Shown here: positions 9,075 through 43,742 of the stretch, one piece after another
Layout of the letters: each line of letters starts with the position of its first letter
Numbering within the stretch: position 1 is the stretch's first letter
Notes under the pieces: model-generated
What the model was told of the DNA's origin: nothing
The model's database searches: none
Seen by the model: only the letters and a program-made list of their open reading frames with translations
Assembly: GCA_016207665.1 (NCBI GenBank)
Contig: JACQPG010000024.1
Location: 22,476 to 86,475 of the forward strand
Source of the DNA: Elusimicrobiota bacterium
GTDB taxonomy: Bacteria; Elusimicrobiota; Elusimicrobia; UBA1565; UBA9628
Direction of reading: 5' to 3'
Length of the DNA: 64,000 nt
Translations under genes and position numbers: made by a program

Positions 9075-9703
9075 TAGAGTCGAGCGAAATTCATCAGAAG
9101 TCGCATCCCGAACTTATGGCTCTTCTCGGGATGGAATTGCGCGCCGAAGATGTTGCCGCGCTGGATCGCGGCGTCGAAGCGGATTCCATAGTCCGTTTTG
9201 AGTATGGAATCTTCTTCACTATCGACGCGCACATAATATGAGTGTACAAAATAGAATCGAGACTCATCGGGGAGGTCCTTTGTCAGGGGACTGTCTCGAG
9301 TGGGGATAACCCTATTCCATCCCATGTGGGGAACTTTCGTTCCGGGTTGCGCGGGAAAGCGGATTGTCGAAGCGGGAACCCAAGCTAATCCTGACAGTTT
9401 GCCTTCATCGCTGGACCGGGTCATAATCTGCATGCCCAGGCAGATTCCGAGAATTGGGATGCGTTCTTTTAAGGCTTTATGGTCAAGGATTCGGCGGAAT
9501 CCCCGACTATCGATTCTTGCCATGGCGTTATCGAAAGAGCCGACACCTGGCAATAGCAGCTTGCGTGCTTTCGAGATGTCCTCCAAATCATTGGTAACGA
9601 TGGACGATACTCCAATACGTTTGAGCATGTTTTGGATGGAGCCCAGATTGCCAATGCCGTAGTTGACGACGGTGATCATGCTCATGCCTTGGCTGGGAAA
9701 CAA
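9074..9703 (-). CDS. hisH: HisH-like glutamine amidotransferase
   Basis: VVNYGIGNLGSIQNML, LLPGVGSFDNAM, GICLGMQ (nucleophilic Cys), HMGWN, FVHSYYV, GAQFHPEKSHKFG. Confidence 0.9.
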   Translation of the reverse strand: MFPSQGMSMITVVNYGIGNLGSIQNMLKRIGVSSIVTNDLEDISKARKLLLPGVGSFDNAMARIDSRGFRRILDHKALKERIPILGICLGMQIMTRSSDEGKLSGLAWVPASTIRFPAQPGTKVPHMGWNRVIPTRDSPLTKDLPDESRFYFVHSYYVRVDSEEDSILKTDYGIRFDAAIQRGNIFGAQFHPEKSHKFGMRLLMNFARL

Positions 9704-10851
9704 TATTTGAGATAAAAACTCATGGGCACCAAGTTGTAGTTAGCCAACATAGCGAATAACGGACGCAGACGCTCGAAGCGCTTCTTATACGTGGGAAATT
9801 CCGTCCATGATCTCGGCGGTTGCCGCATGATATGTTCATATTCTGCATCCGAAAGATCCAATCGTTTCTTGAAGTAAGTCACGAGCTCGGGTTCAATCTT
9901 TGGAGGAGTGTTGTACTCGGCCCAGGCAGCTTCGCGTGTCATTCTCCCCATTCTTGCCAATGCGGACAGGGTATTGTTCCTTAGGTCCGAGCCAAATTTT
10001 TGCGGCAGATAAATCCCATGGCAAAAGGCCGTCATTCTATTTTCTAAATGATGGCCGCCATAGTATTGCCAGCCAAAATTCCTTTCCAAGAATTCCCGGG
10101 CGGCCTCCTTGCTATAATCGAGATACCAGAATGGTCGAACTTTTTTTATCCTGGCGATGCTTGTCCACCACATGAATCGGCTGAAGGTCATCAGCGGATA
10201 GGTTTTCATGGGGCGACGGCCATGCTTCTGATGAATTGACTGGATGTATTTCCCGTCGAAGTAATTTCTGCCGAAGGGCGTGATGCCTTCTGTGACGAAC
10301 GAATGACCCTCTAGTATGAATTTGACGCCGTTTGTCCAGGCCGCGCGATACATGACCTCCGCCAGCGCCAAATCAGTCGCCGCCTCGATTTCGGGAACTC
10401 CTGATAAGAAAAAAGATCGGAAGATGTCATCGGACTCTTTATTATCGACGACGTGGGTATAGAGATCGACATTCATGGCGCCAAGCACCTTGCGGATATT
10501 TTCCGTGGCGATCGCCGAATTCCAGGTATTGTCGTAATGGACAGCTAATGGCCGTAAACCCCATCGCCTTGCCAGGCACAACAGGTAAGATGAGTCAGTT
10601 CCGCCGCTGACTCCGATCACGCAGTCGTATCGTTTCCCTTTCCCGTCGGCCTTGATTTCTGAAACGATTCGTTGAAAGGTGGATTTGCCGATTTCGGTAC
10701 CTGTCCCGTATTGTTGTTTGAGGCGATCCGTCTGATGGCAATAGTTGCAAACGCCCGATTGATCGAAGGTTATGGCGTCGACGCGTGCGTCATAAATGCA
10801 GCGGCTGCATACCTGGAGGGTCGCCTTATGCAGATCAGGGTCTAGCAGCAT
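9682..10851 (-). CDS. N-acetyl sugar amidotransferase (WbpG/PseA/LegG-like)
   Basis: CSRCIYDARVDAITFDQSGVCNYCHQ...YDCVIGVSGGTDSSYLLCLA (PP-loop SGGxDS with Cys pairs). Confidence 0.85.
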   Translation of the reverse strand: MLLDPDLHKATLQVCSRCIYDARVDAITFDQSGVCNYCHQTDRLKQQYGTGTEIGKSTFQRIVSEIKADGKGKRYDCVIGVSGGTDSSYLLCLARRWGLRPLAVHYDNTWNSAIATENIRKVLGAMNVDLYTHVVDNKESDDIFRSFFLSGVPEIEAATDLALAEVMYRAAWTNGVKFILEGHSFVTEGITPFGRNYFDGKYIQSIHQKHGRRPMKTYPLMTFSRFMWWTSIARIKKVRPFWYLDYSKEAAREFLERNFGWQYYGGHHLENRMTAFCHGIYLPQKFGSDLRNNTLSALARMGRMTREAAWAEYNTPPKIEPELVTYFKKRLDLSDAEYEHIMRQPPRSWTEFPTYKKRFERLRPLFAMLANYNLVPMSFYLKYCFPAKA

Positions 10852-11824
10852 CTTCCTTCTTACCCAGGCTTGCTGAAAATGCGTTGTTATTGCCGGGCTT
10901 GTTCCGTTCGCGCCACCAGATAGAAGCGGGCATATCTATTCCGTTCATCCCAATATGGGTGATCTCCAAAACCGATTCGTTTCCGCATCCAACGAATATC
11001 TGGCCATCCATCGTTTTAATTTGTCCGCAAGGCGGAAACGGGAAATGTTTATGCGGAACGAGCTGGGACGACCAAATTGTAACCTTATCGGCTTGGTGGA
11101 ACGTGAAGGCGCCAGGGTATGGCTTGGTCTGGGCGCGAATGAAATTGTAGATCTGGCAGGCGGGGCGCGACCAGTCGATGATTCCATCCTCTGGGCCGCG
11201 CTGTGGAAACAACCGCCGTCGACTTTCGTCTTGGGGTGTTAGCTGCGCAGAGCCGTTGGCCAGACGGGGTAATTGTTTTACGAGAAGCTCGATCCCTAGC
11301 GATTCTATTCGTTGGTAAAGGGTGGCGATGGTATCCTCTGGGAGGATATCTGCCGCCAGTTGTCCTACAACCGGCCCGCTGTCCACGCCATCAGCCAGCT
11401 GAAATAGAGTGATGCCTGTCTTGGTTTCGCCGTTGATCATAGCCCATACAAGCGGCGCCCCGCCACTGTAATCAGGAAGCAATGAGGAGTGGAGCCCATA
11501 GGCGGGCGCCATTTCCCGCCAGGGTCGTGGGACCATGTGGTACCACCCGGCTACGAGGAACATATCTGGCGCCCAGGAGCGAACGCGGTCCATCAGGTCT
11601 GGATCCTTCATGTTCCGACGGATTATGGCGCATTCTATGTTATGCGAGTCGCAGTAGCTCTTGACGTCGGCAAATAGGACATTCGTGACGCCTTGCGGCC
11701 GATATGAGATTGAAAAATGGCGTGGGGCGGTGACGGCCCCCACGATTTCGCAGCAGGGCAAAGTAGTAATTGTTTCCAGGCAGCGCATTCCAAACGTGCT
11801 CGCGCCTATAAATACGATTCTCAT
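10835..11824 (-). CDS. Methionyl-tRNA formyltransferase-like (possible sugar N-formyltransferase)
   Basis: MRIVFIGASTFGMRCLETI...YGLHSSLLPDYSGGAPLVWAMINGETKTGITLF: HxSLLPxxxG formyltransferase motif. ORF extends to 11884. Confidence 0.75.
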   Translation of the reverse strand: MRIVFIGASTFGMRCLETITTLPCCEIVGAVTAPRHFSISYRPQGVTNVLFADVKSYCDSHNIECAIIRRNMKDPDLMDRVRSWAPDMFLVAGWYHMVPRPWREMAPAYGLHSSLLPDYSGGAPLVWAMINGETKTGITLFQLADGVDSGPVVGQLAADILPEDTIATLYQRIESLGIELLVKQLPRLANGSAQLTPQDESRRRLFPQRGPEDGIIDWSRPACQIYNFIRAQTKPYPGAFTFHQADKVTIWSSQLVPHKHFPFPPCGQIKTMDGQIFVGCGNESVLEITHIGMNGIDMPASIWWRERNKPGNNNAFSASLGKKEDAARP

Positions 11825-13716
11825 GCGTGGATGCTTCCCGGCCTGATTTCCGTTAGCCACTGTTCCACATTGAGTAGTGACCATATCAGCAGCCGTCTAT
11901 TCTGCGTACCGCTCAAGTGTTCCTTTACGAGTTGTTCGACGACCGCACTGTCCATGAACTCGTAGATATTTGCCTTGCGATTAAGCAGGGTGCGTTTGAC
12001 GAATTCAATGCTTTCGCCTTTGAACCAGCTCGCATCCGGGGCGGAAAAGCCTTGCTTGACGGTGCATGTTGTATCATCGGGAATGTAGCGCTTCATGACC
12101 TCGCGCAGGATTCGTTTGCCATCGCCGGTTTGTTGGAAAAAATCGCCCTGTTTATTGCCTGCGTCGTTTTCATTGATGCGAATCACATCGGTCAGGTTGC
12201 GGAGTTTGAGATGCACTGGACAGCGCATGGCAAAGTCGACCAGGTCATTATCCAAAAACGGCACCCGGGTTTCCAATCCGTGGGCCATGCTGAGCTTATC
12301 TTCAACCACGAGCAGGCCATGAAGGAACGTCTTTGCTTCGAAATAAAGCGAGTGGTTGATATAGTCCTCGGGGCCATCAATATGTCCCTTATAATTCTGG
12401 AAGACATCGCGAAAGATATCTCGCGTCCAGACCTGTTCCACGTCAGCCGCTATGGGAGCGAACAGCAGTTTTAGATGACGATTGTCCACCAACCGTTGCC
12501 AGAACAGATAGTACTTATCGATGTACTGCTCGAAATTATCGTTGACCACTGCCCTATAGTAGCGCCAAGGGTAACCGCCGAAAAGTTCGTCGCCGCCTGC
12601 GCCGCTAAGAACCACCTTGACGAATTTGCCCGCGAGTTGGGCGGCATAGTAGTTGGGATAACTTTGCCCCACGCGGGGTTCTTCCAGATGCCATGCCAGT
12701 TTTGGCAACACTCGCTCCATATCGCCTGCTTTTAGGACCATTTCGTAATGCTCGGTCTTGAAATGATAAGAGAGGGCTTCGGCCTTTCTCCGTTCATCGA
12801 AGGCCAGCTCTATTCCGGAGGCAGAGCTTAAGTCAAACCCGCAGGTGAAGGTCTTGAGATACGGGAAAGACTTGGCGGCGATGGCCGTGATCGATCCGGA
12901 GTCCATTCCGCCGCTCAGATAACTCCCTAGTTCGACGTCCGTGATTAGTTGGCGATTGACTGCCTGTTGGAAGAGGCGGTTGAGTTCCTCACGATATTCT
13001 TCATCGTCGGCTCGCTCGGAGGGCTCTTGAAAGCGGTAATCCCAGTATTGGATGCGGCGCAGTGTGGGATCCGCATGCTTGAGATCGAGCGTGGCGTAGT
13101 TTCCTGGGGGAAGCAGCTGGATGTTCTCCAGCAAGGTCCGATCGGTAAAGATGTTCTGAAACGTGAAGTATTCAAGTAGCGCGGGCTTATCCATCCGTCG
13201 TATGAAGCCCGGGATGGCCAGGATAGCCTTCTGTTCGGAGGCGAAGGCAAATGTGTTCCCTTGGCGGCTGACATAGAGAGGCTTTATGCCGTAACGGTCT
13301 CGGGCCAGGAGCAATGTTCTATCCTTGCGGTCCCAAAGCGCCAAAGCGAACATGCCGTTGAATTTGTCGAGCGCCTTTATTCCCCATTCCGCGAGTGCAT
13401 TTAGGACGACCTCGCTGTCGGTCTTAGACCGGAACCAGTAGCCCTTGGCTTCCAGCTCGCTGCGTAATTCGCGGAAGTTATAGACCTCGCCGTTAAAACT
13501 AATGAAATAGCGATGATCGGCGCTGGCCATGGGCTGGTGCCCAGCGGGTGAGAGATCGATGATAGCCAGGCGGCGGTGGCCGATGCCGACGTTGCCTTCG
13601 ATCCAATGCCCCTCTCCATCCGGTCCGCGATGGGCGATGACGTCGGTCATGCGCTGCAGAGTCTTTGGGGAGATCGGCGCGCTATCGAGGTTGATGAGAC
13701 CGGCTATTCCGCACAT
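11821..13716 (-). CDS. asnB: Asparagine synthase (glutamine-hydrolysing) family protein
   Basis: MCGIAGLINLD N-terminal Cys, AHRGPDGEGHW, SFNGEVYNFRELR, SYLSGGMDSGSI. Confidence 0.9.
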   Translation of the reverse strand: MCGIAGLINLDSAPISPKTLQRMTDVIAHRGPDGEGHWIEGNVGIGHRRLAIIDLSPAGHQPMASADHRYFISFNGEVYNFRELRSELEAKGYWFRSKTDSEVVLNALAEWGIKALDKFNGMFALALWDRKDRTLLLARDRYGIKPLYVSRQGNTFAFASEQKAILAIPGFIRRMDKPALLEYFTFQNIFTDRTLLENIQLLPPGNYATLDLKHADPTLRRIQYWDYRFQEPSERADDEEYREELNRLFQQAVNRQLITDVELGSYLSGGMDSGSITAIAAKSFPYLKTFTCGFDLSSASGIELAFDERRKAEALSYHFKTEHYEMVLKAGDMERVLPKLAWHLEEPRVGQSYPNYYAAQLAGKFVKVVLSGAGGDELFGGYPWRYYRAVVNDNFEQYIDKYYLFWQRLVDNRHLKLLFAPIAADVEQVWTRDIFRDVFQNYKGHIDGPEDYINHSLYFEAKTFLHGLLVVEDKLSMAHGLETRVPFLDNDLVDFAMRCPVHLKLRNLTDVIRINENDAGNKQGDFFQQTGDGKRILREVMKRYIPDDTTCTVKQGFSAPDASWFKGESIEFVKRTLLNRKANIYEFMDSAVVEQLVKEHLSGTQNRRLLIWSLLNVEQWLTEIRPGSIHA

Positions 13717-29175: not shown

Positions 29176-29661
29176 TTAAGCCCGCGGGGGGCCAGCCTTG
29201 GCGGAAGTATAGCCCGAGTCGGCCCAGTTGTCCAGGGAGTAGAGCCGGCAGCCGGCCTTGAAGGCCGCGAAGCAGAGCGCCAGCAGCCCCGAGTCGAGGA
29301 GAAGGGTCTGGTTGGGCGTGGGATGCCAGCCCATCCCGAAGCAGCCGCAGCTGGGCAGCATGATGCCCCGGGCTTTGACCGAAAGCAGGGCGAGGATGAA
29401 GCCTGCGAGCATGGCGGCCGCCCCGAGCGCGGCTCCCCGAGTGAAATAGCCGAAGATCAGGGAAAAGCCCAGCAGGAGCTCGGCCCAGGGCAGGAAGGCG
29501 GCCAGGGCGAGCGCGAAATCGGGGGGGACTATGTGATAAGACTCGATGATCAGGGCGAACTCCTCGGTGGGTTGGGCGAACTTGTTGGCGCCGGCGAAGG
29601 CGAGCAACGCTCCCAGCAGCACGCGCGCGGCCAGCCCGGCGGCGGCCCAGCGCCCGCTCAA
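29176..29661 (-). CDS. MauE/DoxX-like redox-associated membrane protein
   Basis: LLGALLAFAGANKFAQPTEEFALIIESYHIVPPDFALALAAFLPWAELLLGFSLIFGYFTRGAALGAAAMLAGFILALLSVKARG...CGCFG: MauE pattern. TTG start overlaps the DsbA-like stop. Confidence 0.75.
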   Translation of the reverse strand: MSGRWAAAGLAARVLLGALLAFAGANKFAQPTEEFALIIESYHIVPPDFALALAAFLPWAELLLGFSLIFGYFTRGAALGAAAMLAGFILALLSVKARGIMLPSCGCFGMGWHPTPNQTLLLDSGLLALCFAAFKAGCRLYSLDNWADSGYTSAKAGPPRA

Positions 29662-30290
29662 TTCTTGAGTTGCCTGTCTATCCAATTCATCCCTCTCGTG
29701 GACAATTGCTTGGCGCCGGCGAACCTTTTTTCGTTGATGAAGAAAGTGGGCGTCGAGCCCACCCAGCGGAGATTGCCCTGCTTGACGTCCTCGTCGATCA
29801 AGGCGGAGATCTCGGGATCGGCGAGGCATTTCTTGAAAAGGTCGAGGTCCAGTCCCAGCGCGGCCGCGTAGCCCTGCAGCTCCGACTCTGGGGACTCGGT
29901 GTGGGCCCAGTGCTCCTGCTTTTCGTAGAGCTTGTCGTGATAGGGCCAGAATCGTCCCTGGCGCCCCGCGCACTCGGCCGCGATCGCGGCGGGCTTGGCC
30001 CAAGGATGTATGCCCTGCAGCGGGAAATGCTTGAAAGTGAAGACCACGTCGTTGCCGTAGAGCTCCAGGATGCGCTTGAGAGGCTCGGTCGCGACCCGGC
30101 AGGCCGGGCATTGAAAGTCGGAATACTCGACGATGGCGATGCGCGCGCCCGGGACCCCCTTCTGCCGGTAGGCGGGGGCGTTCTCCACGATGGGCCCATG
30201 GAGGCCGCGCGAGGCGAAGGCCGAGATCAGCGAGGCGGCGATGATCAGCGCCGCTCCCGCGGCGCGGCGAGCCGGCCGTGTATTCAACAT
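29658..30290 (-). CDS. DsbA-like thiol-disulfide oxidoreductase
   Basis: N-terminal TM; IAIVEYSDFQCPACRVATEPLKRI (CPAC), FTFKHFPLQGIHPWAKPAA, GSTPTFFINEKRFAGA. Confidence 0.88.
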   Translation of the reverse strand: MLNTRPARRAAGAALIIAASLISAFASRGLHGPIVENAPAYRQKGVPGARIAIVEYSDFQCPACRVATEPLKRILELYGNDVVFTFKHFPLQGIHPWAKPAAIAAECAGRQGRFWPYHDKLYEKQEHWAHTESPESELQGYAAALGLDLDLFKKCLADPEISALIDEDVKQGNLRWVGSTPTFFINEKRFAGAKQLSTRGMNWIDRQLKN

Positions 30291-30357: not shown

Positions 30358-31596
30358 TTATTGCACGAGCTTGGCCGCGTCGATCATGCCCGCGCCTTGC
30401 TGGTTGGGCGTGGCGTTGGGCAGAGGTAAAGACGCCGCCTTCAGAGCCGCGCGAACCGCCGGCTCGCCGCGCAGTCTCTTGGCCGAGATCGCCAGGGCGG
30501 CCAGGCCCGAGACATGCGGCGTGGCCATGGAGGTGCCGGAAAGGCTTTGATAGCCCCCGCCCATATAGGTCGAAGGGACATCGACGCCCGGGGCGATGAA
30601 GTCGACCTCCGGGCCGCGGCTGGAGAACCAGGCCACCGCGTCTTGCGAGTCGGAAGCCGCGATGGCGATCGCGCCCGGGTAGCCCGCGGGAAAATTCACC
30701 GTATCCGAGTTCTCGTCACCCCAACCGCCGGAGTTGCCGGCCGCGGCGATGAGAACCGTGCCTCCGGCCACCATGGCCTCGACCGCTTCCTTAAACGAGT
30801 CGTTGCCCTGGGAGGCGCCCAGAGACATGCTGGCGATATCCATCTTATTCTCCCAAGCCCATTGCATGCCGGCGATCACGTCCGAGAAGGTGCCGGAGCC
30901 GCCCGAATCGAGCACCTTGACCCCGTAGATCGAGGCCTCGGGGGCGACGCCCACCACTCCCTCGGCGTTGTCAAGAGCCGCGATCGACCCTGCCACGTGC
31001 GTGCCATGGCCGTGGTCGTCCAGGAATTCCCCGTTCTTGCTGATCGCGTTCCAGCCGCCCTTGACGTTGGAGGCGAGATCCGGGTGCTTGAAGTCGACGC
31101 CGGTGTCGATCACCGCGATCTTGACGCCCTTGCCGCGAGCGGCGGCCCAGGCCTTGGGGGCGTTGACCCGCGGGATGCCCCAAGGAAGGCTCTGCTCGGC
31201 GCGCCTAACCGGCGCCGAGGCCTTGAAGGGCGAGATCACGCTTTTGATGTCGGGCAGCGGTATGTCGGATATCCGCGCCGGCGCCGCGTTGATCCACTTG
31301 ATGCGGGGGTCATCGTCGATTCTCACCACCTCGGGGCGGCTGCGGAGGCGCGCCTGAAGCAGGACGACTTGTTGGGGAGCGCCCTCGATGACGACCGCAT
31401 GGATCATCTCGAGAGTCCTGACGACCTTGGCTCCGGCGCTCTCGGCGATGAGAACGCGGTCCTTGGCCGGCGTCTGCGCGGCGAATACGACGATCTTCCT
31501 GACGGGGGCTTGCTCGGCCTGCGTGTCGGCGCGCAAGCCGGCCGGTCCCGCCAAGCCCAGCGCCAAAAGCGCCAGGGCCGTCCTGATCTTGAGCAT
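30358..31596 (-). CDS. Secreted subtilisin-like serine protease (S8)
   Basis: Signal peptide MLKIRTALALLALGLAGPAGLRAD; KIAVIDTGVDFKHPDL (Asp), DDHGHGTHVAGSIAA (His), SLSGTSMATPHVSGLAAL (Ser). ORF extends to 31650. Confidence 0.95.
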   Translation of the reverse strand: MLKIRTALALLALGLAGPAGLRADTQAEQAPVRKIVVFAAQTPAKDRVLIAESAGAKVVRTLEMIHAVVIEGAPQQVVLLQARLRSRPEVVRIDDDPRIKWINAAPARISDIPLPDIKSVISPFKASAPVRRAEQSLPWGIPRVNAPKAWAAARGKGVKIAVIDTGVDFKHPDLASNVKGGWNAISKNGEFLDDHGHGTHVAGSIAALDNAEGVVGVAPEASIYGVKVLDSGGSGTFSDVIAGMQWAWENKMDIASMSLGASQGNDSFKEAVEAMVAGGTVLIAAAGNSGGWGDENSDTVNFPAGYPGAIAIAASDSQDAVAWFSSRGPEVDFIAPGVDVPSTYMGGGYQSLSGTSMATPHVSGLAALAISAKRLRGEPAVRAALKAASLPLPNATPNQQGAGMIDAAKLVQ

Positions 31597-31714
31597 GGCC
31601 ACCTCCTCTCCTCGGCCCCTGATGGCGGGCCGTGGCGAGGAGCTTAGCACATTTGGACCAAAAGGCCTATATTAATTTAGGTCCTTTGGGAATGGACGGA
31701 TTAGGACTTTTCGG

Positions 31715-33434: not shown

Positions 33435-33581
33435 GATCAGGGCCCTTCGCTCCTAGCCCGGGCATTTCGAGCTCGTCGAGGCCTAGGTCCCCTGGGCCGC
33501 TGAGCTTTAGGTCCTTAGCCAAGAGCCTGAAGTACCAATAGACCCATCACTGATCGGCGTCCTTTGGACATAATTCGATAC

Positions 33582-36500
33582 ATGCGACAAGTCAAAGGCT
33601 TTCTCGGGCGTTCTTTCTCCGTTGTTCTGGCGTTGGCGATGGCGTTTCCCGGCGGTCTGAACGCGGGCTCATCGCGCAACCGCTCTCGTTCCAAGGATTT
33701 TTCGGTCTCGCTCGGGCGCGTGAGGCCCCAGCGTATCCCGATCGCGCGGCCCGCGACGCCAGCGCCGATTCCGGCGCCCATCTCGGCCGCTGAGCTTCCG
33801 GGCGCGGCGATCAGGCGGCATCCCGTGATCGAGCTGATGGATCAGCTCCAGAGCGCGGGCGTTTCGCTTTCAGACGACGCCTCCGTGGATCCGGAGCGAT
33901 TGGAGTCCGCGGCGCTTCCCGAGTCGGCGCGTCAGAGCCTGGCCTCGATCGCCCGGGCCGTGGCCGCGCGGCGCGGCGGCTTGTCCGCCCAGGGCGCCTT
34001 GGGAAGGGCTTTCGACAGGGCTCGGGCCGAGGGCGACTCGGGAGTGGTTTCGGGTTCGGGGGGCGCGACCCTTATGGCCGGGCCCGCCGAGGCGGGCGCG
34101 TCCTTGCTGCGCTGGAGCCCGGGCGGGGGCGAGGTTCCGGAGAGCACTCGCGGCGTGGAGAGAGCCGGCGAGCCCATCGTGGGGCAGGATTTGGCGCTCA
34201 AGCATTTGCGCGACGCCTTGCGCATGTCCGGCAAGAGCTATAACGTCTATATCGCCGGTCCCGAGGATTCAGGCCGCCAATCCGCGGCCGAGCTCATTCT
34301 CAGGCGGGAGATCGCCCCGTCGCTTCCGACGCCTCCGGACCTGGTCCAGGTCACGAATTTCCAGGATAAGGAATATCCCCTGGTGTTGGAGCTGCCGGCG
34401 GGCGCAGGGCAGAGGCTGAGGGCGGGGGTCGCGCAATTCCTGATCAACTTCCAGCTCCATCTGGCCGAACGCATGTCGTCGCCCGAGATCAAGGAGAAGC
34501 ATCGCGAGGCCGCGGCCAAGATAGCGAAGGAGAAAGAGCAGGTGATGGCCGCCTTCGACGCGGAGGTCGAGCAAGTCGAGCTGGGCAAGTTCGGGATCGA
34601 GATATACGGGGAGCCGAACGGCAAGGGAATCGAGATCAAGGCGGCTCTTAAACTGGGGAAAGGCGGCCGGGTGATCGCCGAAAAGGAGCTGGACGAGCTG
34701 ATCAAGGAGGGAAAATTCAGCCGGCAGGAGTGGGAAGAGGCTCATGAACAGTTGCCTGAAAAATCCGCTCCTTTCATGGATAAATTCGAGGATGCCATAG
34801 CCCATCATCGCCATGCGGACGCCAGGCTTGCCGCCCAGATCGAGATGATCAATCGCCAGGCCGCCGCGAGCCTGGCCGCGGGGCTCGGCAACGCCATGCT
34901 TTCCGCGATGTTCGCGCCCGATGAGAACGATCCGCAGCTACAGCGATGGAAGGCGCAGGTGGCGCAGCGCGAGGCTGATTTCCGGAAGGGATTATCCTCG
35001 GTGATGATAGGGCCCTATGGCGTGGATTACATGATACACGAGGGGGGCTTTTTCCTGCTCTTGACCCGTTATGAAGGCGGGGAACGCGTTCCCGTGCAAC
35101 AAGAGGAGCTGGACTCGCTCAGGGCCTCGGGCGCGCTGACGCAAGACCATATCGACGAGTGGCTCCGGCTCGCGCAGGAGTGGTCGCAGAAGTTCTTGGA
35201 GATGGCGCGGCTCAATAACCAGGAGTACGCGGCCATGGGTTCTCGGAAGGACCCGACTGAACAGGATAAGAAGCTGATCGGCTGGGCCCAGCTTATGGCG
35301 GGCTACGCCGCCAGCCATTACAAGGAATTCCTGCCGGCCTATCTCAAGGATGACGGGGAAGCGTCGCAGGCTCAGGGCGGCGTCTCCGAGGCCTTCCAAG
35401 TCAACGTCATGGTCGACAACTCCCAGACCCAGGGGGCTCCGGTGATATTCGAGCCCAATCCTACCTTGGAGAACCTGTTCGGCTCGGCGGACGCGGAGTC
35501 CAAGAGCATGATCGTCGGCGGCAAGATGATGAAATTGGGCGGAGCCGCCGGTCCCAAGCTCAATCCGGGAGCGGTTCATAGGGCCAATGGCGGATTCTTG
35601 ATCCTGAAAGACCTGGACGTGCTTCGCCAACCCGGCGCCTGGGAAGCTCTGCAGCGCATGATCGAGACCGGAAAGGCGGAGATCATCGAAGGGGGGCTGC
35701 TGGGCTTGAGGCTTCAAAGCCGCGTCCACAAGACTCCGGTCAACGTGCGCGTGGTGCTGATCGGCAATTATCTGCGTCATAGGCTGCTTACCGAGCATGA
35801 CGAGAATTTCCGCCGGAATTTCAGGTCCTTGGCGCAGTTCGAGCCTTCCCTGGCTCTCAACGCCGAGACCCTCAAGGGCTTCGTGCAATTCCTGAAGATC
35901 ATCATCGAGAAAAGCGCGGGCGAGATCTTGGAGATGAACCGGCAGGCCATCGTCGCCCTCATCCAATACGCGGCCAGGCTGGTGCCCAGCCATGTGGAGA
36001 TATCGGCCCGCCTGGGCCTCATCGACAGCGTGGCGCGGGAGGCCACCTTCTTCGCCCGCAAGGAGGGAGCGGAGCAGCTCGACGGCCGGCATGTGGCGAT
36101 GGCGCTGGAGCGCCGCAAGGAAAGCCACGGCCTGTTCGAGCGCCGGACCCTGGCCCGCTACCGGGACGGCGAGGAGTTGGTGCGCGTCGAGGGCGCCGAG
36201 GTGGGCGAGATGAACGCCCTGGTGGTGTATGAGATGGCGGACAGCTTCGGGGCTCCCAAGCGCATGAGCGTCTACGCGGTGGCGGCGCCTCCGGGATCGC
36301 CCCTGCTCATCTCGACGGATCGCGCCGGCAAGCTCACGGGAAAGAGCTTCGACAAGGCCCTGGCCGTGGTGGAGAACTTCATCAAGCGCCAGTTCGGGCG
36401 CAAGCTGCTCATCCCGGCGCAACTGCTTGTGTCTTTCGAGCAGAGCCATGGGGTCGACGGGGACTCGGCCACCGGGGCGACGATCGCGACCGCGCTTTCC

Positions 36501-36875
36501 AGCCTTTCCGGCGTGCCCCTCAAGCAGAACATCGCGATGACCGGCTCGGCCGATCAGGCCGGGAATATACTGCCCATCGGAGGCGCCAACGAGAAGATCG
36601 AAGGCTTCTTGAACGTGGCGAGCCTCTTGGTCAGCCAGGCGCATGAGCAGGGATTGCATGGAGTAATCTTGCCTCAGGCCAACTTGGCGGATCTCATGCT
36701 CGATCCCAAGGTCATCGCCGCCATCGACGGCCGCCGCTTCAAGATCTATCCGGTCAGGCACATCAGCGAGGTCATGCCCATTTTGACCGGCGAGAGCTAC
36801 CAGTCGATCATCGAGAAGGCCGAGCGCTATATCGACGATCTGCGCCAGGGGCTTAAAGGGCTCGCCTCCAAGTAA
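33582..36875 (+). CDS. Lon-like (AAA_32/LonC-type) protease with signal-peptide-like N-terminus
   Basis: VGQDLALKHLRDALRMSGKSYNVYIAGPEDSGRQSA (degenerate Walker A), NGGFLILKDLDVLRQPGAWEALQRMIETGKAEI, C-terminal Lon domain VDGDSATGATIATALSSLSGVPLKQNIAMTGSADQAGNILPIGGANEKIEGF. Track starts at TTG 33564; ATG at 33582 likely. Confidence 0.88.
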   Translation: MRQVKGFLGRSFSVVLALAMAFPGGLNAGSSRNRSRSKDFSVSLGRVRPQRIPIARPATPAPIPAPISAAELPGAAIRRHPVIELMDQLQSAGVSLSDDASVDPERLESAALPESARQSLASIARAVAARRGGLSAQGALGRAFDRARAEGDSGVVSGSGGATLMAGPAEAGASLLRWSPGGGEVPESTRGVERAGEPIVGQDLALKHLRDALRMSGKSYNVYIAGPEDSGRQSAAELILRREIAPSLPTPPDLVQVTNFQDKEYPLVLELPAGAGQRLRAGVAQFLINFQLHLAERMSSPEIKEKHREAAAKIAKEKEQVMAAFDAEVEQVELGKFGIEIYGEPNGKGIEIKAALKLGKGGRVIAEKELDELIKEGKFSRQEWEEAHEQLPEKSAPFMDKFEDAIAHHRHADARLAAQIEMINRQAAASLAAGLGNAMLSAMFAPDENDPQLQRWKAQVAQREADFRKGLSSVMIGPYGVDYMIHEGGFFLLLTRYEGGERVPVQQEELDSLRASGALTQDHIDEWLRLAQEWSQKFLEMARLNNQEYAAMGSRKDPTEQDKKLIGWAQLMAGYAASHYKEFLPAYLKDDGEASQAQGGVSEAFQVNVMVDNSQTQGAPVIFEPNPTLENLFGSADAESKSMIVGGKMMKLGGAAGPKLNPGAVHRANGGFLILKDLDVLRQPGAWEALQRMIETGKAEIIEGGLLGLRLQSRVHKTPVNVRVVLIGNYLRHRLLTEHDENFRRNFRSLAQFEPSLALNAETLKGFVQFLKIIIEKSAGEILEMNRQAIVALIQYAARLVPSHVEISARLGLIDSVAREATFFARKEGAEQLDGRHVAMALERRKESHGLFERRTLARYRDGEELVRVEGAEVGEMNALVVYEMADSFGAPKRMSVYAVAAPPGSPLLISTDRAGKLTGKSFDKALAVVENFIKRQFGRKLLIPAQLLVSFEQSHGVDGDSATGATIATALSSLSGVPLKQNIAMTGSADQAGNILPIGGANEKIEGFLNVASLLVSQAHEQGLHGVILPQANLADLMLDPKVIAAIDGRRFKIYPVRHISEVMPILTGESYQSIIEKAERYIDDLRQGLKGLASK

Positions 36876-39800
36876 ATGAGCCCTTCCGGCAAGTTCTTGC
36901 GCGGCCTGCTTTGCGCCGCCCTGCTCATAGCCTCTCCGGGAAGCCTTCCTTACCAGGCCTTGGCGGCCTCCCGTCCCGAGGGCCGGCCCGTGTCGGCCGC
37001 GCAGCTGCGCCTGGCCATGCGGGCCGTGACGCGAGTCGGGAAAGGCCCCGCGGATTCATCTCGAGCGAGCCGGGCTCAGCGGCGCCTGGCGGGGCGGCTA
37101 TCCTCATTGGACCTGGACTCGGCCCAGGGCCGGGCGCTGGCGGAGAGATTCGCGCAACGCGTCGAGGGCCTGGGCCCCGAGGCCTCGGAATCGGAGCTGG
37201 CGCAAGCCCTGATCGCGGCCGCGGAGCAAAGCTCGGAGCCGCTGCAGCCCGGATTTGGCGGGTTCGAGGGCGTCGGGCGGCATATCGCCGCCGTGATCCG
37301 CTCCTGGCGTAAGGCGGTTCCGGCTGAAATCGAGGCCGCCAACTCCGCCGGCGTATCCGCGGCCCGCTCGCCGCAGGCCTTGGCCCGGCCCTCTTTTTCC
37401 CCTCGGGAGCCGGGCGTCATCGAGCCGGTGGCCGTGGAGCGGCATTCTCTCGGAACCCATGCCCAGCCGCGAGCTTTCTGGTCCGGGCGCTTGGGCCGGG
37501 CCGCGCTGTGGGGCGCGGCCTTGGCCTTGGCGGGCGCGGCGATCGCGCATCTGGGCTTGATCCCGGCCGCCGCGCTTTCCGCGGTGTTGATCGGCTCGGT
37601 GTTGTTGCACGAAGTCGAGCATCTTCGCGTCTTGCGCAAGCTGGGAGACCCTACCGCCGAGAAACACGGTCACGGCAGTCTCAATCCGTTGAAGCATATC
37701 GATCCTTGGAAAACCCTGGCCCTGCCGTTGCTGACGCTTCTCGGCAGCTTGCTGTGGCTGCCCGCGCCGGTGATCTTCGGCCAGGCCGCGCCCGTGCGCG
37801 TGGACTTCAACAAATTGCCCGATCCCAAGAGAGACGCCGCGCGCGTGGCTTGGGCCGGGCCGCGCACGAATCTATTGCTTTCGGCGGCGGCTTGGGCGGC
37901 GTACCTGGCCTTGCCGGGCCTGGGCCTTATCGCCGCGGGCGGAAGCGCCGCCTGGGTGTTGTGGCAAGCGGCCGCGATCAACGCCTCGCTGGCCTTGTTC
38001 AACCTGCTTCCACTGCCGAATCTGGATGGAGGCAAGATACTGGTGCGCTATCTGCCGCAGCGGGTCTATCGGCTTTGGACCAGCAATCCGGATCTGCCCG
38101 CTTCGTATCAAAGCACCTATCAAAGGCTCTATGAGGGCCCGGCTTATTTGTTGAGCAAGCTCGGCATCGCCAGCCAAGGCCGGGTCAATCGTCTGGCCTG
38201 GGGCGCCAGCGTCTTGAGCCTGGCGCTTTTTTCCGTGGGACTTTCCGCTTGGCTGGGCGCTCCCTTGGCGCTTTTCCTGCTGGTTTGCGCTTACGACTAT
38301 TATTGCATCCGGGAAAAGATACAGAACGAGGAGGCGGTCAAGGCCATCATCGGCATATTCCAGGGCTTTTCCCGGGCCATGGCCCAGGCCGCGGAGCGGG
38401 ACGAGGGCGTCGAATCCGAGATCAATTCAGAGGAAGTCGAGCATGTCTTGAAAAACGCCTTCGAGGACACCCTCGACAAGATCATGGACTCGGAGGGCTT
38501 CGAGGCCCTCGACGAGGCCGGACGATGGGAGCGTTTCGAGTCGGCCTATCGCGAGGCCGCGGTCGCGGCCCTGCGCGCCCACGGCATGAGCGAGGACGGC
38601 CCCGAGGCCATCCGGCGCTTCCTCGATCGTGCCGATCTCAAGTCCTATTTCCAGGCCCTGAGGGACTGGATGACGCGCTACGAGGCCTGGGAGAAGTGGC
38701 GCAGTCCCAAACGCAGGCAACGCCGGCGCGATGCCGAGGGCAAGTCCTCCCAGGCCCAAGGAGGAGCGGCCACCGCGATGGGCTTGGCGGTTTTGGGGGC
38801 TTTCGGCGTGGGCTTGGCGGGCATCGATCTCGGCGCCGTGGCCCTGCTTCCCGGAACGGTCGAGCCAAACGCGCCCGCCGCGCGCCCGAGCTTCGTCCAG
38901 GCGCTCAACGACGCGAATCTGAAGTTCGACGACAAGCAGAAGGCGTTCCTGACCCTTCACCTGACTGAGCTGAAGCTCAAGAAGGTGGCGCCCGTGATCG
39001 GCCGGGTCGAGGAGATCAAGCGTCTGATCAAGAGCGCGCGGGGCCCGCGCGGGGTGATCAACAACGTGGTGGCCTGGGGCAAGACCGGCGTGGGGAAGAC
39101 GGCGCTCTTCGAGGGCCTGGCCCAGGCGCAGGCCTTTTCGGAGACACAGCCCGAGGGAGGCACGTTCAAGCTCGCGAGCTTGGAGGGCCGCTATCTGCTC
39201 GAGCTCGATCTCTCGCGCTTGATGTTGGCCGATGACCCGGCGATGGCGCTGGCCATGATATTCCAGTATCTCGCCCGTTTCAATGATCCGGACCCCAGGA
39301 ACGGCAGCAAGGTGATATTGATCATCGACGAGATCCATAAGCTCTTCAAGCACCCCCGCGGCGAGCTCATGGCCGAGCTGCTCAAGAGGCATTTGAGGGA
39401 GGGAGACCTCGCGGTCTTCGCCGCCACCACCGAGGCCGAATACAGGAAATACATCGAGCCTGACGAGGCCTTCAGCCGGAGGCTGGTGCCGCTCGAGCTC
39501 AAGCCGGCCACCCCGGAGGAGACCCTGCTTTATCTGGAGGGAGGCCAGGAATACTATGAGCGGCTATTCGGCGTGACCATCGCGCCCGAGGCTCTTAGGG
39601 CTTTGGCGGAACTATCGCGCTTCGATCGCAGCGTGGAGCTGCCGGAGCGGGCCTTCAAATATCTGCGCCTGGCCTCCTCCGAGGCTAATTTTGACAGCCG
39701 GCGGGACCGCTACTCGCTCGATATTCGGGACTTGATCGGGCGGCTGCGCTATGCGATGCAGCGGCTCTCGGAGCAGCTTTCAGGATCGGAACTGGTCACG

Positions 39801-42800
39801 GACAAGCTGAAGAAGGACGAGCCAGGGGCGATCTCCCTTTATAACCTCGCCATAGACCTCAGCCAGGAACTGATCGACCTTTATCGCAAGCGCGACGGGG
39901 TGCCGACGGAGGGAACTCCGGTGGTGGATTCCGAGATGGTGAAGGAGGAGATATCCCGGGAAACCGGCATCAAATCAGGGCTTCTGGTCTCGGGCGAGGA
40001 GGATCTGGAGCGCTATCTCAAGATGGAGGAGATCGTCGGCCGAAGGGTGATAGGACAGGAGGAGCCCATCCATATCATCGCCGAGGCCGTGCGCCAGAAC
40101 AAGGCCGGGCTTTCGGATCCGAATCGACCCATGGGAGTGTTCTATCTCACCGGCCCCACGGGCTCGGGAAAGACCTTGCTCGCCAAGACCCTCGCCTGGT
40201 TCTTGTTCGGCGATCCCGAGGCCATGGTGCGCGTCGACATGTCCGAGTACCAGGAGGGCCACTCCGTGTCGCGCGGCATAGGAGCTCCTCCCGGCTATGT
40301 CGGCCATGAGCAAGGCGGACAGTGGACGGAGAAGGTGAGGCGGCGGCCCTACAGCGTGGTCTTGTTCGACGAGATCGAGAAGGCGCACCCCAATGTCTGG
40401 TTGTTGCTGCTTCCCCTGCTGGCGGACGGCCGCATGACCGACGGCCAAGGGCGAACCGTGGATTTCAAGAATACGCTGATTCTTATGACCTCCAATCTGG
40501 GCATGCAGGCGGTGAATGTCGAGCCCTATGTCAAGGCTTATCAGGCGATGCGGACGGATATCCAGGCGGCCGAGGCCGCGGGGGATGCCCATGCCCTGCA
40601 GGCGGCGCGGTCGCGCCTCGAGCAATTGATCGCCAATTTGTCGGCCGATACGAAGAAGACGACCATGGAGGTCACCGGCAAGTATTTCAAGGAGGTCTAT
40701 CCTCCCGAGTTCCAGGGGCGGCTGCATGCCCCTCCCATCGTGTTCAACCGCATCACGCCGGCCATGGCCCGGGAGATCGTGGAGCTGAACCTCAAGCAGC
40801 TCCGCGAGGTGCTGGCTTTCGCCGGCCACGAATTCGATTGGGATCCAGGTCTTGTGGCTCATATCGTCGACGAGGGCTATTCGATCGAATTGGGAGCCCG
40901 GCCCTTGCAGAACGCCATCGATCGGCTCGTGACCCGGCCGATAGCCAAGGAGATACTCAAGGCAGCGGTCGCCAGCGGCAATAAGATACGGCCCAGCGAG
41001 ATCAAGGTCGGCTTCGAGCAGGGCCGGGTGGGTTTCGAGATCAAGGCCCTCAAGCCCCGGCCTTTGGCCAAGAAGAAGTCCCGGGAAGCCGCGGCTCGCG
41101 AGCTGTTCATGCGCGTGCTGCGCCATTCCTTGGCCGCGGCGGTGCAGCCGATCGCGGCGCCGGGGCTTTCGGAGATAGATGCCTGGGCTCGGGCGGCCCT
41201 AGGTCAGGACCCGGTCCGCGCTCAGGAGCCGGGCTCGGGAGCTCCGGCGGCGGAGCCGCCTGGCGACGGCGCGCTTTTCAGCGCCAAGCCCGGCGGCATG
41301 AGGGCCATGGGAGATTCCCAGATAACCGTTCTCGCCTCTCATAACAGGCCGCAGGGCAAGGACGAGGGGCTGCGGCGCCTGCGCGAGGAGCTTTCAGCCG
41401 CCCTGGAGCGGGAGGGATATCCGGAGTCCGTTCGGGAGCTGATACTGCGCACGGTGGAGCATCCGGACGATCCCTATGTGGGCTGGCTCAAGCTCATGGT
41501 GGAGCGCGCCAAGGAAAGGCAAACGGGAGAGAGTCCCATTAAGATCAGCTACGAGGTGGACGGGGATTCGGTACGCCTGCTGGTGCATCGCGAAGGGGAA
41601 CTCGATGCTCGGGAGACGGCCGTGTTCGAGACCCATTTCAGAGGCCCCCCGCCCGAGAGCCCGTCCGTCTCGCGCGAAAGGGCCGAGGCCGCCAATGTGG
41701 CGGGCGAGGACGGGCGCAGGCATTATTTCGATCTCTATCGCGCTCTTAACCGGATGGGAGCGAATTGGGGCTATTTCTCCGGGATATTGGCCCGGGGCGA
41801 GAGCGGAGTGGATTATTGGATCGAGATACCCAAGGTCCCGCCGCAACCGGCCGCCGCACCCGCTGGCGAGGCTGCGGCGCGGGGGCAGCCTGATACGGGC
41901 AAGATCAAGGAGCACGCTCGGGAACGCGACATCGGCGCCTATGGTTTCGATCCGGCCTGGGCCGGCATCGTTTTGACTTTGGGCCGGCGCGAGTACCGGG
42001 GTTGGGACGGATACCTTTCCGAGCTCAAGAGCCGCTTCCATCTGCGCGAGACGCTTTCCATCCATGGAGGTCATGACACGAAATTCGGCTTGGTCCTCGA
42101 ACGGCGGCCTTCAGGCGATGAGGCTCTTGAGGAGGAGCTGGCGCGGCTGGCGATAGAGCTTTCCAGGGAGGAGGCGGCCGTGTCGATTGCCGTCGACAGG
42201 CGAGTGGCCAAGAGGATCGCGGCGCCCCAGCCCCCCGCTTTGTTGGCGAAGGTGGATCTGTTGCCGGACGAGCTGCGGCCGGCGGCCGAGGCTCGGCGCA
42301 CGATCTTGATCGAGCTGGCGCATCAGGGTTTCCCGACGCAATATTTCCGCGACAATCTTTTCGTCAGCATAAACCGCGGCGTGGGCCTGATGCTGGTGCG
42401 TGATTCCAGGACTGGGTCCCGGTTGGAGGCAGAGTTCAGGGCGGATGACCCGGAGGCCGCCGCCCGTGCCGTGATCGCGTTGGCCGATTATGGCGCCCTC
42501 GATGCGATCCGGGTGCATCCGGAAGTGAAACGGAGGATAGCCGAGCTGCTGAGAGACCCGTCCGCCCCGGCTCGCGAAAGGCCCGATCGTTCGCCCCGGG
42601 AGCAGTTGAAAGCCATGGCCCTGGCCATTTTAAGGCAGGGAAATCAGCGCAGCCCGTCCGTGTTGATCGCGGCGGGGGATCTCTTCGCGTCGCTGGCCTC
42701 TTCCGATGACCTGAACTTGGCCTTGGATTGGATCGGACATAACGACTCCCGCCTCCAGCATTTCCTCATCGGCGCCGGCGCGGCCGTCGTGGCCGCGCTG

Positions 42801-43742
42801 GGCCAGGGGGAAGACAAGCTGGAGGTCCTCAGCCAGGCCATGGAGTCGCTGTCGCGGCGCGGAGGCGATGAGTTCAAGCCGATTAAGTCGAGGCTGGCCG
42901 ACGCCTACGCGGAGATCGCGGCGCGAAGCCTGGATCCGGGCGAGATAAGGCGGCGCTTCGAAGAGGAATCGGGCAAGAGAGCCGTGGAGGGCCGCAACGA
43001 GCCCTTGATCTCGGCGCTTTATACGGCCCTAGCTCGACGCGCCGGTGCCGAGGCTCAACCGGTTCTCCTGGAGAATTGGGAGCAGCCGCGAGGGCGAGAG
43101 CTATACCAATATCTCAAGAGGGCCGAGCCCGCGCTGTTGCGGGAGATCTACGAGGATTGGAAAAGGATCAGGGCTCGGCCCGATGGAGCCGCGCGACAGC
43201 TCGTTCTTTACGCCATCGCCGACCATGGCGACCGCGACGATCTCGAGGCTCTCAAGGGCATCGCCGAAAGCGGTTGGGAGGGAGCCCTGGAGCACCAGGG
43301 CAAGCTCATGGCGGCCGAGGCTTACGCCGCCATGGTCAAGCGACTTGGGGCTTTCGCGTCGGTCAGGAACGAGAGCAGGACCTGGATTTCCGGCGGTTTG
43401 GGCGATTCGATCAACTTCAGCCGCATGGTGAGCGCGGTCGAGGTGATCGGGGAGGCGGGCTCGGCCAGGGATATGCCTCTGCTCGAGCGCCTGATGGAGC
43501 TCAACCCGGCCCAGGTCAATGCCGCGCATGAGATGACGCAACAGTTGGCCGCGCGAGCTTGGGCGCGAAGGGCGATCGCCCTCGGGCTGATGGGAGGTTT
43601 GATGAGCGCCGAGCCCGGGCCGGATCACGTCGATCAGCCGTCCAGGATCGCGAAGATGCTGACTGACACCAACCCCATAGTCAATACGGCCGCTCTAGAG
43701 GCCTTGAGGCTTCATTTCCAGGCCAGGCCCGGAGGCTCATGA
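36876..43742 (+). CDS. Giant fusion: M50 site-2-protease-like membrane domain, two-AAA Clp/Hsp100 ATPase, and long uncharacterised C-terminus
   Basis: HEVEH (37608-37622), GPRTN (37857-37871), NLLPLPNLDGGKIL (38019-38033); AAA1 GKTGVGKT (39078-39101) and ILIIDEIHKLF; AAA2 GPTGSGKT (40152-40175), GAPPGYVGHEQGGQWTEKVRRRPYSVVLFDEIEKAHP, GARPLQNAIDRLV. Confidence 0.9.
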   Translation: MSPSGKFLRGLLCAALLIASPGSLPYQALAASRPEGRPVSAAQLRLAMRAVTRVGKGPADSSRASRAQRRLAGRLSSLDLDSAQGRALAERFAQRVEGLGPEASESELAQALIAAAEQSSEPLQPGFGGFEGVGRHIAAVIRSWRKAVPAEIEAANSAGVSAARSPQALARPSFSPREPGVIEPVAVERHSLGTHAQPRAFWSGRLGRAALWGAALALAGAAIAHLGLIPAAALSAVLIGSVLLHEVEHLRVLRKLGDPTAEKHGHGSLNPLKHIDPWKTLALPLLTLLGSLLWLPAPVIFGQAAPVRVDFNKLPDPKRDAARVAWAGPRTNLLLSAAAWAAYLALPGLGLIAAGGSAAWVLWQAAAINASLALFNLLPLPNLDGGKILVRYLPQRVYRLWTSNPDLPASYQSTYQRLYEGPAYLLSKLGIASQGRVNRLAWGASVLSLALFSVGLSAWLGAPLALFLLVCAYDYYCIREKIQNEEAVKAIIGIFQGFSRAMAQAAERDEGVESEINSEEVEHVLKNAFEDTLDKIMDSEGFEALDEAGRWERFESAYREAAVAALRAHGMSEDGPEAIRRFLDRADLKSYFQALRDWMTRYEAWEKWRSPKRRQRRRDAEGKSSQAQGGAATAMGLAVLGAFGVGLAGIDLGAVALLPGTVEPNAPAARPSFVQALNDANLKFDDKQKAFLTLHLTELKLKKVAPVIGRVEEIKRLIKSARGPRGVINNVVAWGKTGVGKTALFEGLAQAQAFSETQPEGGTFKLASLEGRYLLELDLSRLMLADDPAMALAMIFQYLARFNDPDPRNGSKVILIIDEIHKLFKHPRGELMAELLKRHLREGDLAVFAATTEAEYRKYIEPDEAFSRRLVPLELKPATPEETLLYLEGGQEYYERLFGVTIAPEALRALAELSRFDRSVELPERAFKYLRLASSEANFDSRRDRYSLDIRDLIGRLRYAMQRLSEQLSGSELVTDKLKKDEPGAISLYNLAIDLSQELIDLYRKRDGVPTEGTPVVDSEMVKEEISRETGIKSGLLVSGEEDLERYLKMEEIVGRRVIGQEEPIHIIAEAVRQNKAGLSDPNRPMGVFYLTGPTGSGKTLLAKTLAWFLFGDPEAMVRVDMSEYQEGHSVSRGIGAPPGYVGHEQGGQWTEKVRRRPYSVVLFDEIEKAHPNVWLLLLPLLADGRMTDGQGRTVDFKNTLILMTSNLGMQAVNVEPYVKAYQAMRTDIQAAEAAGDAHALQAARSRLEQLIANLSADTKKTTMEVTGKYFKEVYPPEFQGRLHAPPIVFNRITPAMAREIVELNLKQLREVLAFAGHEFDWDPGLVAHIVDEGYSIELGARPLQNAIDRLVTRPIAKEILKAAVASGNKIRPSEIKVGFEQGRVGFEIKALKPRPLAKKKSREAAARELFMRVLRHSLAAAVQPIAAPGLSEIDAWARAALGQDPVRAQEPGSGAPAAEPPGDGALFSAKPGGMRAMGDSQITVLASHNRPQGKDEGLRRLREELSAALEREGYPESVRELILRTVEHPDDPYVGWLKLMVERAKERQTGESPIKISYEVDGDSVRLLVHREGELDARETAVFETHFRGPPPESPSVSRERAEAANVAGEDGRRHYFDLYRALNRMGANWGYFSGILARGESGVDYWIEIPKVPPQPAAAPAGEAAARGQPDTGKIKEHARERDIGAYGFDPAWAGIVLTLGRREYRGWDGYLSELKSRFHLRETLSIHGGHDTKFGLVLERRPSGDEALEEELARLAIELSREEAAVSIAVDRRVAKRIAAPQPPALLAKVDLLPDELRPAAEARRTILIELAHQGFPTQYFRDNLFVSINRGVGLMLVRDSRTGSRLEAEFRADDPEAAARAVIALADYGALDAIRVHPEVKRRIAELLRDPSAPARERPDRSPREQLKAMALAILRQGNQRSPSVLIAAGDLFASLASSDDLNLALDWIGHNDSRLQHFLIGAGAAVVAALGQGEDKLEVLSQAMESLSRRGGDEFKPIKSRLADAYAEIAARSLDPGEIRRRFEEESGKRAVEGRNEPLISALYTALARRAGAEAQPVLLENWEQPRGRELYQYLKRAEPALLREIYEDWKRIRARPDGAARQLVLYAIADHGDRDDLEALKGIAESGWEGALEHQGKLMAAEAYAAMVKRLGAFASVRNESRTWISGGLGDSINFSRMVSAVEVIGEAGSARDMPLLERLMELNPAQVNAAHEMTQQLAARAWARRAIALGLMGGLMSAEPGPDHVDQPSRIAKMLTDTNPIVNTAALEALRLHFQARPGGS

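Follow-up and report, generated by a model that had tools for sequence, protein, structure and literature searches.

The question raised by this locus is whether a Lon protease that has kept its AAA-like module can work outside the cytoplasm. The window, a stretch of 64,000 nucleotides from a 2.78 Mb metagenome assembly of an Elusimicrobiota bacterium, contains an open reading frame for a LonC-type protein on the + strand, running from ATG 33582 to the stop codon at 36873-36875 and encoding 1,097 amino acids. A TTG at 33564 is an alternative start and would add 6 residues. The ATG in the window is not preceded by a clear Shine-Dalgarno sequence; in many orthologues AAGGAG or GAGGAG was found before the ATG. 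An earlier sequence-only reading had described the product as an extracytoplasmic or membrane-tethered Lon and had proposed that loss of the ATPase is what permits export. The motifs on which it was built were recovered at the same places: the P-loop reads GPEDSGRQ, the Walker-B-like strand reads FLILKDLDVL, and the catalytic residues in GDSAT and NEKIEG are Ser962 and Lys1005, 43 positions apart. The coordinates are collected in Table 1.

Table 1. Parts of the window protein and leader-bearing AAA+ proteins of the same lineage, with their positions.
Feature	Position	Strand	Basis
Signal-peptide-like N-terminus, residues 1-28	33582..33665	+	Leader in all 26 assessable orthologues, under purifying selection
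Variable Ala/Pro-rich linker, residues 29-73, predicted disordered	33666..33800	+	AlphaFold pLDDT <50 for residues 1-79; alignment
Clade-specific small helical module, residues 74-151, RHPVIELMDQLQ..., invariant P81, G93, L96, P113	33801..34034	+	Alignments, AlphaFold model
Degenerate Walker A GPEDSGRQ, residues 226-233	34257..34280	+	Arg232 in 19/19 exported-type proteins
Helical-hairpin insert, first copy, about residues 323-400	34548..34781	+	Tandem duplication, AlphaFold model
Helical-hairpin insert, second copy, about residues 465-540	34974..35201	+	Tandem duplication, AlphaFold model
AAA_32 (PF13654) AAA-like domain, residues 617-754	35430..35843	+	Pfam E 4.7e-27
Walker-B-like FLILKDLDVL, residues 672-681, inside AAA_32	35595-35624	+	Alignment
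LonB_AAA-LID (PF20436), residues 785-846	35934..36119	+	Pfam E 6.5e-12
Lon proteolytic domain, about residues 871-1075	36192..36806	+	Pfam, solved relatives, fold match
Catalytic Ser962 (GDSAT)	36465..36467	+	Invariant in every aligned row
Catalytic Lys1005 (NEKIEG)	36594..36596	+	Invariant except G019, an orthologue truncated by a contig end
P0002, next gene, 2,288 aa, M50-ClpB fusion	36876-43742	+	
Leader-bearing LonA, intact Walker A/B and Ser-Lys dyad, 0-2 Cys	L189:4744-8607	-	
Leader-bearing LonA, intact Walker A/B and Ser-Lys dyad, 0-2 Cys	L190:5893-9714 and 9576-12437	-	
Clp-type double AAA+ with signal-like leader, intact Walker motifs, 1,325 aa, 0 Cys	L169:2700-6677 (G000:C47, this genome)	-	

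Pfam matches in the window protein were obtained for AAA_32, LonB_AAA-LID, Lon_C and LonC_helical. Within its clade, AAA_32 (PF13654), the LID domain (PF20436) and Lon_C were present in 19/19 members, and PF20437 in 15/19. The best solved relative was MtaLonC/TTC1975 with an E-value of about 8e-60. An AlphaFold model was calculated from a 45-row alignment (mean pLDDT 81, pTM 0.68); it was mostly confident from about residue 167, with residues 1-79 disordered. In a Foldseek search with this model the top ten matches were all MtaLonC (best 8k8v, E 4.7e-42, TM 0.83 by target length). Therefore the window protein is, by its domains, its best solved relative and its predicted fold, of the LonC type and not a LonA or LonB. 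The features expected of a LonC were found in it, namely the Ser-Lys dyad of a Lon proteolytic domain with its spacing of 43, an AAA-like module of the AAA_32/LID type with a LonC helical domain, the absence of canonical Walker A/B motifs and of the catalytic Glu, and an MtaLonC-like fold in the model. Two LonC-specific insertions in the protease domain are known for LonC (PMC3391209). An identity as LonA was rejected because intact Walker A/B motifs and the LonA N-terminal domain are both missing in the Pfam search and the alignment. Likewise, archaeal LonB was rejected for want of a membrane segment between Walker A and B, and a YlbL-type PDZ-Lon because Pfam returned no PDZ match and AAA_32 is present.

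Scanning the genome contigs with the single sequence gave no relatives, and these were found by an alignment-based scan. A strong match was obtained in 31 of 295 genomes sampled from the phylum Elusimicrobiota, within which the long-leader type is confined to the same family or order. We call these proteins exported-type after their predicted location. Elsewhere in the phylum, two genomes had ordinary short LonC-like matches and one (G282) had a fusion. The fusion (L060, G282:C117) is a single open frame of at least 1,508 aa, in which LonC is flanked by an M48-like membrane protease part on one side and an MFS-transporter-like part on the other. A tree was built from 71 proteins; in it all 29 exported-type proteins grouped together with support 100, and leaderless Elusimicrobiota LonC proteins were placed outside it. 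The tree thus indicates that the exported LonC arose once, in one order of Elusimicrobiota. Of the exported members the window protein has diverged most, with one other about as far (branch about 1.4). The 26 orthologues with a readable N-terminus were 30-39% identical overall.

The N-terminus of the window protein reads MRQVKGFLGRSFSVVLALAMAFPGGLNA followed by GSS, with three K/R, a best 12-residue hydropathy of 2.27 and L-N-A before the plausible cut. The same kind of leader was found in 26/26 assessable orthologues, window protein included, which bears out the export-signal-like N-terminus seen earlier. In these leaders there are 1-4 K/R and the hydrophobic core is short, with a 12-residue hydropathy of 2.2-2.8; most of them end in an A-x-A-type sequence. 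The count comprises orthologues with a complete N-terminal frame; two cut by contig ends and one with a disturbed frame were left out. Leaders were judged by simple hydropathy rules and by comparison, and the ATG before the hydrophobic core was taken as the start. Since the start was picked by the hydrophobic core, a control scan outside the Elusimicrobiota matters. All start codons upstream of Walker A were scanned in 77 LonC-like proteins of other phyla, and no convincing leader was detected; hydropathy was 1.5 or lower in all of them except one. This borderline control (L080) reached 2.03 in a stretch that lies in frame upstream of the likely start. In a codon comparison of close pairs the leader was under purifying selection (pN/pS 0-0.48), and in most of these pairs it was more constrained than the linker behind it. 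The codon comparison therefore indicates that the leader is translated and conserved. Export of the LonC clade is predicted from these sequence data.

No second membrane segment was found in the exported-type LonC proteins, including the window protein. While the extracytoplasmic location of the sequence-only reading stood, its membrane tethering became less likely than a soluble protein. A tethered LonC would keep its leader uncut and sit at the outer face of the inner membrane, comparable to YlbL. Such an arrangement is known from YlbL-type proteins, in which a single transmembrane segment precedes a Lon domain on the outer side (PMC6051672), and the leaders of some orthologues are fairly hydrophobic (19-residue hydropathy >2). 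Nevertheless, we regard tethering as unlikely, given the short hydrophobic core, the usual AxA-type cut site, often as AxA-Q, the long disordered linker behind the leader and the lack of a second membrane segment.

Cysteine is absent from all 1,097 residues of the window protein, and orthologues contain 0-2. The background in soluble non-signal proteins is 1.18% in this genome and 0.95% in a second genome, and 4-5 Cys in about 800 residues were counted in cytosolic LonC paralogues of the same order. The near-absence of cysteine from the mature chain argues against a LonC that is cytoplasmic, or anchored with its catalytic part inside, in which the leader would be a non-functional or inside-facing helix. 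So do the conservation of the leader under purifying selection and the presence, in the same lineage, of leaderless cytosolic LonC and LonA paralogues with normal cysteine. The literature does place LonC in the cytoplasm (PMC9569914), and signal-like leaders are also borne by LonA and Clp proteins with intact ATPase motifs, which would need ATP. With both sides weighed, a catalytic part on the cytoplasmic side appears improbable.

A DsbA-like thioredoxin (29658-30290, -) and a subtilase (S8, subtilisin; 30358-31650, -), both with signal-like leaders, are encoded shortly before the LonC gene on the opposite strand. The DsbA-like protein would fit an oxidising periplasm. A conserved gene neighbourhood of the exported LonC was not found; apparent clusters consisted of the Lon genes or of antisense frames, or were patchy. 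P0002 did not adjoin LonC in the 20 same-family relatives examined. Secretion past the outer membrane, where LonC would break down external protein or be active in another cell, could be suspected from the nearby subtilisin and from a secretin gene in one relative (G014). However, there is no sorting signal, secretion genes are not linked and the neighbours are not conserved, which leaves this reading with little probability.

The P-loop Lys is replaced by Arg232 in all aligned exported-type proteins, and in other LonC proteins K and R are nearly equally frequent at this position (20 vs 21). Walker B lacks its catalytic Glu in every member of the exported clade and in essentially all of its relatives. 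The idea that the Walker motifs degenerated as an adaptation to export was therefore rejected, the degeneracy being an old, family-wide trait in LonC. Because it also occurs in cytosolic LonC of other phyla, loss of the ATPase motor most likely preceded export, which would make LonC pre-adapted rather than adapted. Thus the proposal that ATPase loss permits export was weakened, and it was weakened again by leader-bearing LonA proteins in relatives and Clp-type proteins in this genome and in relatives, whose Walker motifs are intact. Three points of the sequence-only reading remained supported by sequence and comparison, namely that the protein is a LonC, that its ATPase is inactive and that it is exported. 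MtaLonC is devoid of ATPase activity and, independently of ATP, degrades proteins that are unfolded but not those that are well folded (PMC3391209). It still binds ATP-gamma-S (PMC3391209), and therefore a degenerate Walker A is no proof of nucleotide independence. An ATP/ADP translocase (PF03219) as ATP source was absent from this genome, with short weak matches only in relatives. That the Arg-type P-loop still hydrolyses ATP is very improbable: the invariant Arg232 implies that the loop is still constrained in the clade, but no exported member has the Walker B Glu and MtaLonC lacks ATPase activity.

Between Walker A and the GAPV motif the exported clade is longer by about 130 residues. Where the motif was readable, this spacing was 383-410 residues in exported types, compared with 259-272 in cytosolic LonC. 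The insert is a tandem duplication: in most orthologues its two halves match each other much better than shuffled sequences do (z up to about 33). The duplication signal of the window protein itself is weak (z 2.8); its length and two predicted strand-pair/long-helix units fit. In the AlphaFold model the two copies appear as strand pairs and long helices. By position, the duplicated insert corresponds to the LonC helical hairpin extension named in PMC9569914. The helical module in front of Walker A is absent from cytosolic LonC, whose N-terminus begins about 60 residues before Walker A.

LonC is not the only AAA+ protein of the lineage with a signal-like leader. Relatives encode LonA proteins with such a leader, GPPGVGKT or GPPGTGKT, DEVDK and an intact dyad (L189, L190, L202-L206 among others). 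Those of L204-L206 match the L189 and L190 proteins of Table 1 in their intact Walker A/B motifs, dyad and 0-2 Cys; leaderless LonA paralogues of the same family usually have 4-7 Cys. Several leader-bearing LonA proteins have no second membrane segment. The Clp-type protein of this genome has a possible second one at about residues 163-182. P0002 consists of a signal-like leader, an M50-type intramembrane protease segment (LLHEVEHL, NLLPLPNLDGG) and a double ClpB-type AAA+ part, with intact Walker motifs and only 3 Cys; similar fusions in relatives have about 2,300-2,740 aa (L195, L196). In leader-bearing proteins with a second membrane segment, the AAA part may lie inside.

A short motif, [FY][DE][GN], recurs in L189, L190, L196, L204-L206 and most LonC orthologues; it lies past the Ala/Pro-rich linker, about 110-200 residues from the start. 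It is common to otherwise unrelated leader-bearing proteins (LonC, LonA, Clp, M50-ClpB, a histidine phosphatase and a PLD protein) and is enriched in the LonC/LonA/Clp set. We do not claim it as a general export tag, as it occurs in 2 of 36 signal-bearing proteins of this genome and the difference in G014 is modest (6/39 vs 5/125).

The leaders on Walker-intact LonA and Clp proteins speak against export of LonC in so far as leaders in this lineage could mean something else. Either LonC is pre-adapted to an ATP-free compartment, or the lineage exports a wider AAA+ set with an unexplained energy source. We consider it possible, though doubtful, that a whole cysteine-depleted, leader-bearing AAA+ proteolysis set is exported, consisting of the ATPase-less LonC and Walker-intact LonA and Clp-type proteins. 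If so, ATP would be available outside the cytoplasm, or canonical AAA+ proteases would work there in some other way. Whether ATP-driven protein unfolding takes place outside the cytoplasm in these bacteria is thus a testable question.

For the window protein itself we favour, with some reserve, an exported LonC that acts as a soluble, passively gated chamber protease for unfolded envelope proteins. The Sec pathway would carry it out of the cytoplasm, and signal peptidase would cut off residues 1-28. The mature protein would be soluble in the periplasm and assemble into a chambered ring resembling that of MtaLonC. Its entrance, enlarged and passive, may be shaped by the duplicated helical insert together with the N-terminal helical module. 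Unfolded or damaged envelope proteins would enter passively and be cut at Ser962/Lys1005 without ATP. Thus, a LonC clade with a lost ATP motor and a conserved export signal probably degrades unfolded proteins outside the cytoplasm.

Full AAA-Lon proteases are, in the literature consulted, either enzymes of the cytoplasm or mitochondria (LonA, LonC) or located at the membrane (LonB); LonA and LonC are described as soluble cytoplasmic enzymes and LonB as membrane-bound (PMC9569914). An exported AAA-Lon was not found in this literature, in which subscription journals were mostly not covered, and within it Lon proteases of this build have so far not been described outside the cytoplasm. A conserved clade with an export leader on the whole ring-forming chain would be a natural ATP-free chamber protease outside the cytoplasm, and it would offer a clean test of passive substrate admission to a chamber.

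Among known systems, LonC (MtaLonC of Meiothermus taiwanensis, TTC1975 of Thermus; MEROPS S16.007) shares with the exported clade the domain order, the fold, the LonB-type Ser-Lys site and the degenerate AAA-like module. For MtaLonC, PDB entries give 732 residues, and the enzyme is described as a soluble protein of the cytoplasm. In contrast, the exported clade adds a signal-like leader, a linker, a helical module and a duplicated helical insert, and has almost no cysteine. The nearest sequence relatives outside the clade are the COG1067/AAA_32 Lon-related bacterial proteins of about 800 aa, with about 25-29% identity over the full length. They have the same degenerate Walker motifs but are leaderless, with one helical insert and the shorter Walker A-GAPV spacing. 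Archaeal LonB (TonLonB, 3k1j) resembles the window protein in its LonB-type active site and in carrying AAA and protease parts on one chain. It hydrolyses ATP, however, and is membrane-bound through an insert between Walker A and B that the window protein lacks. A further relative in build is the YlbL-type PDZ-Lon (Bacillus subtilis YlbL), whose Lon Ser-Lys domain is thought to be extracytoplasmic and needs no ATPase. YlbL has a membrane anchor and a PDZ domain and no AAA-like module (PMC6051672), whereas in the exported clade the whole AAA-like ring module appears to be exported.
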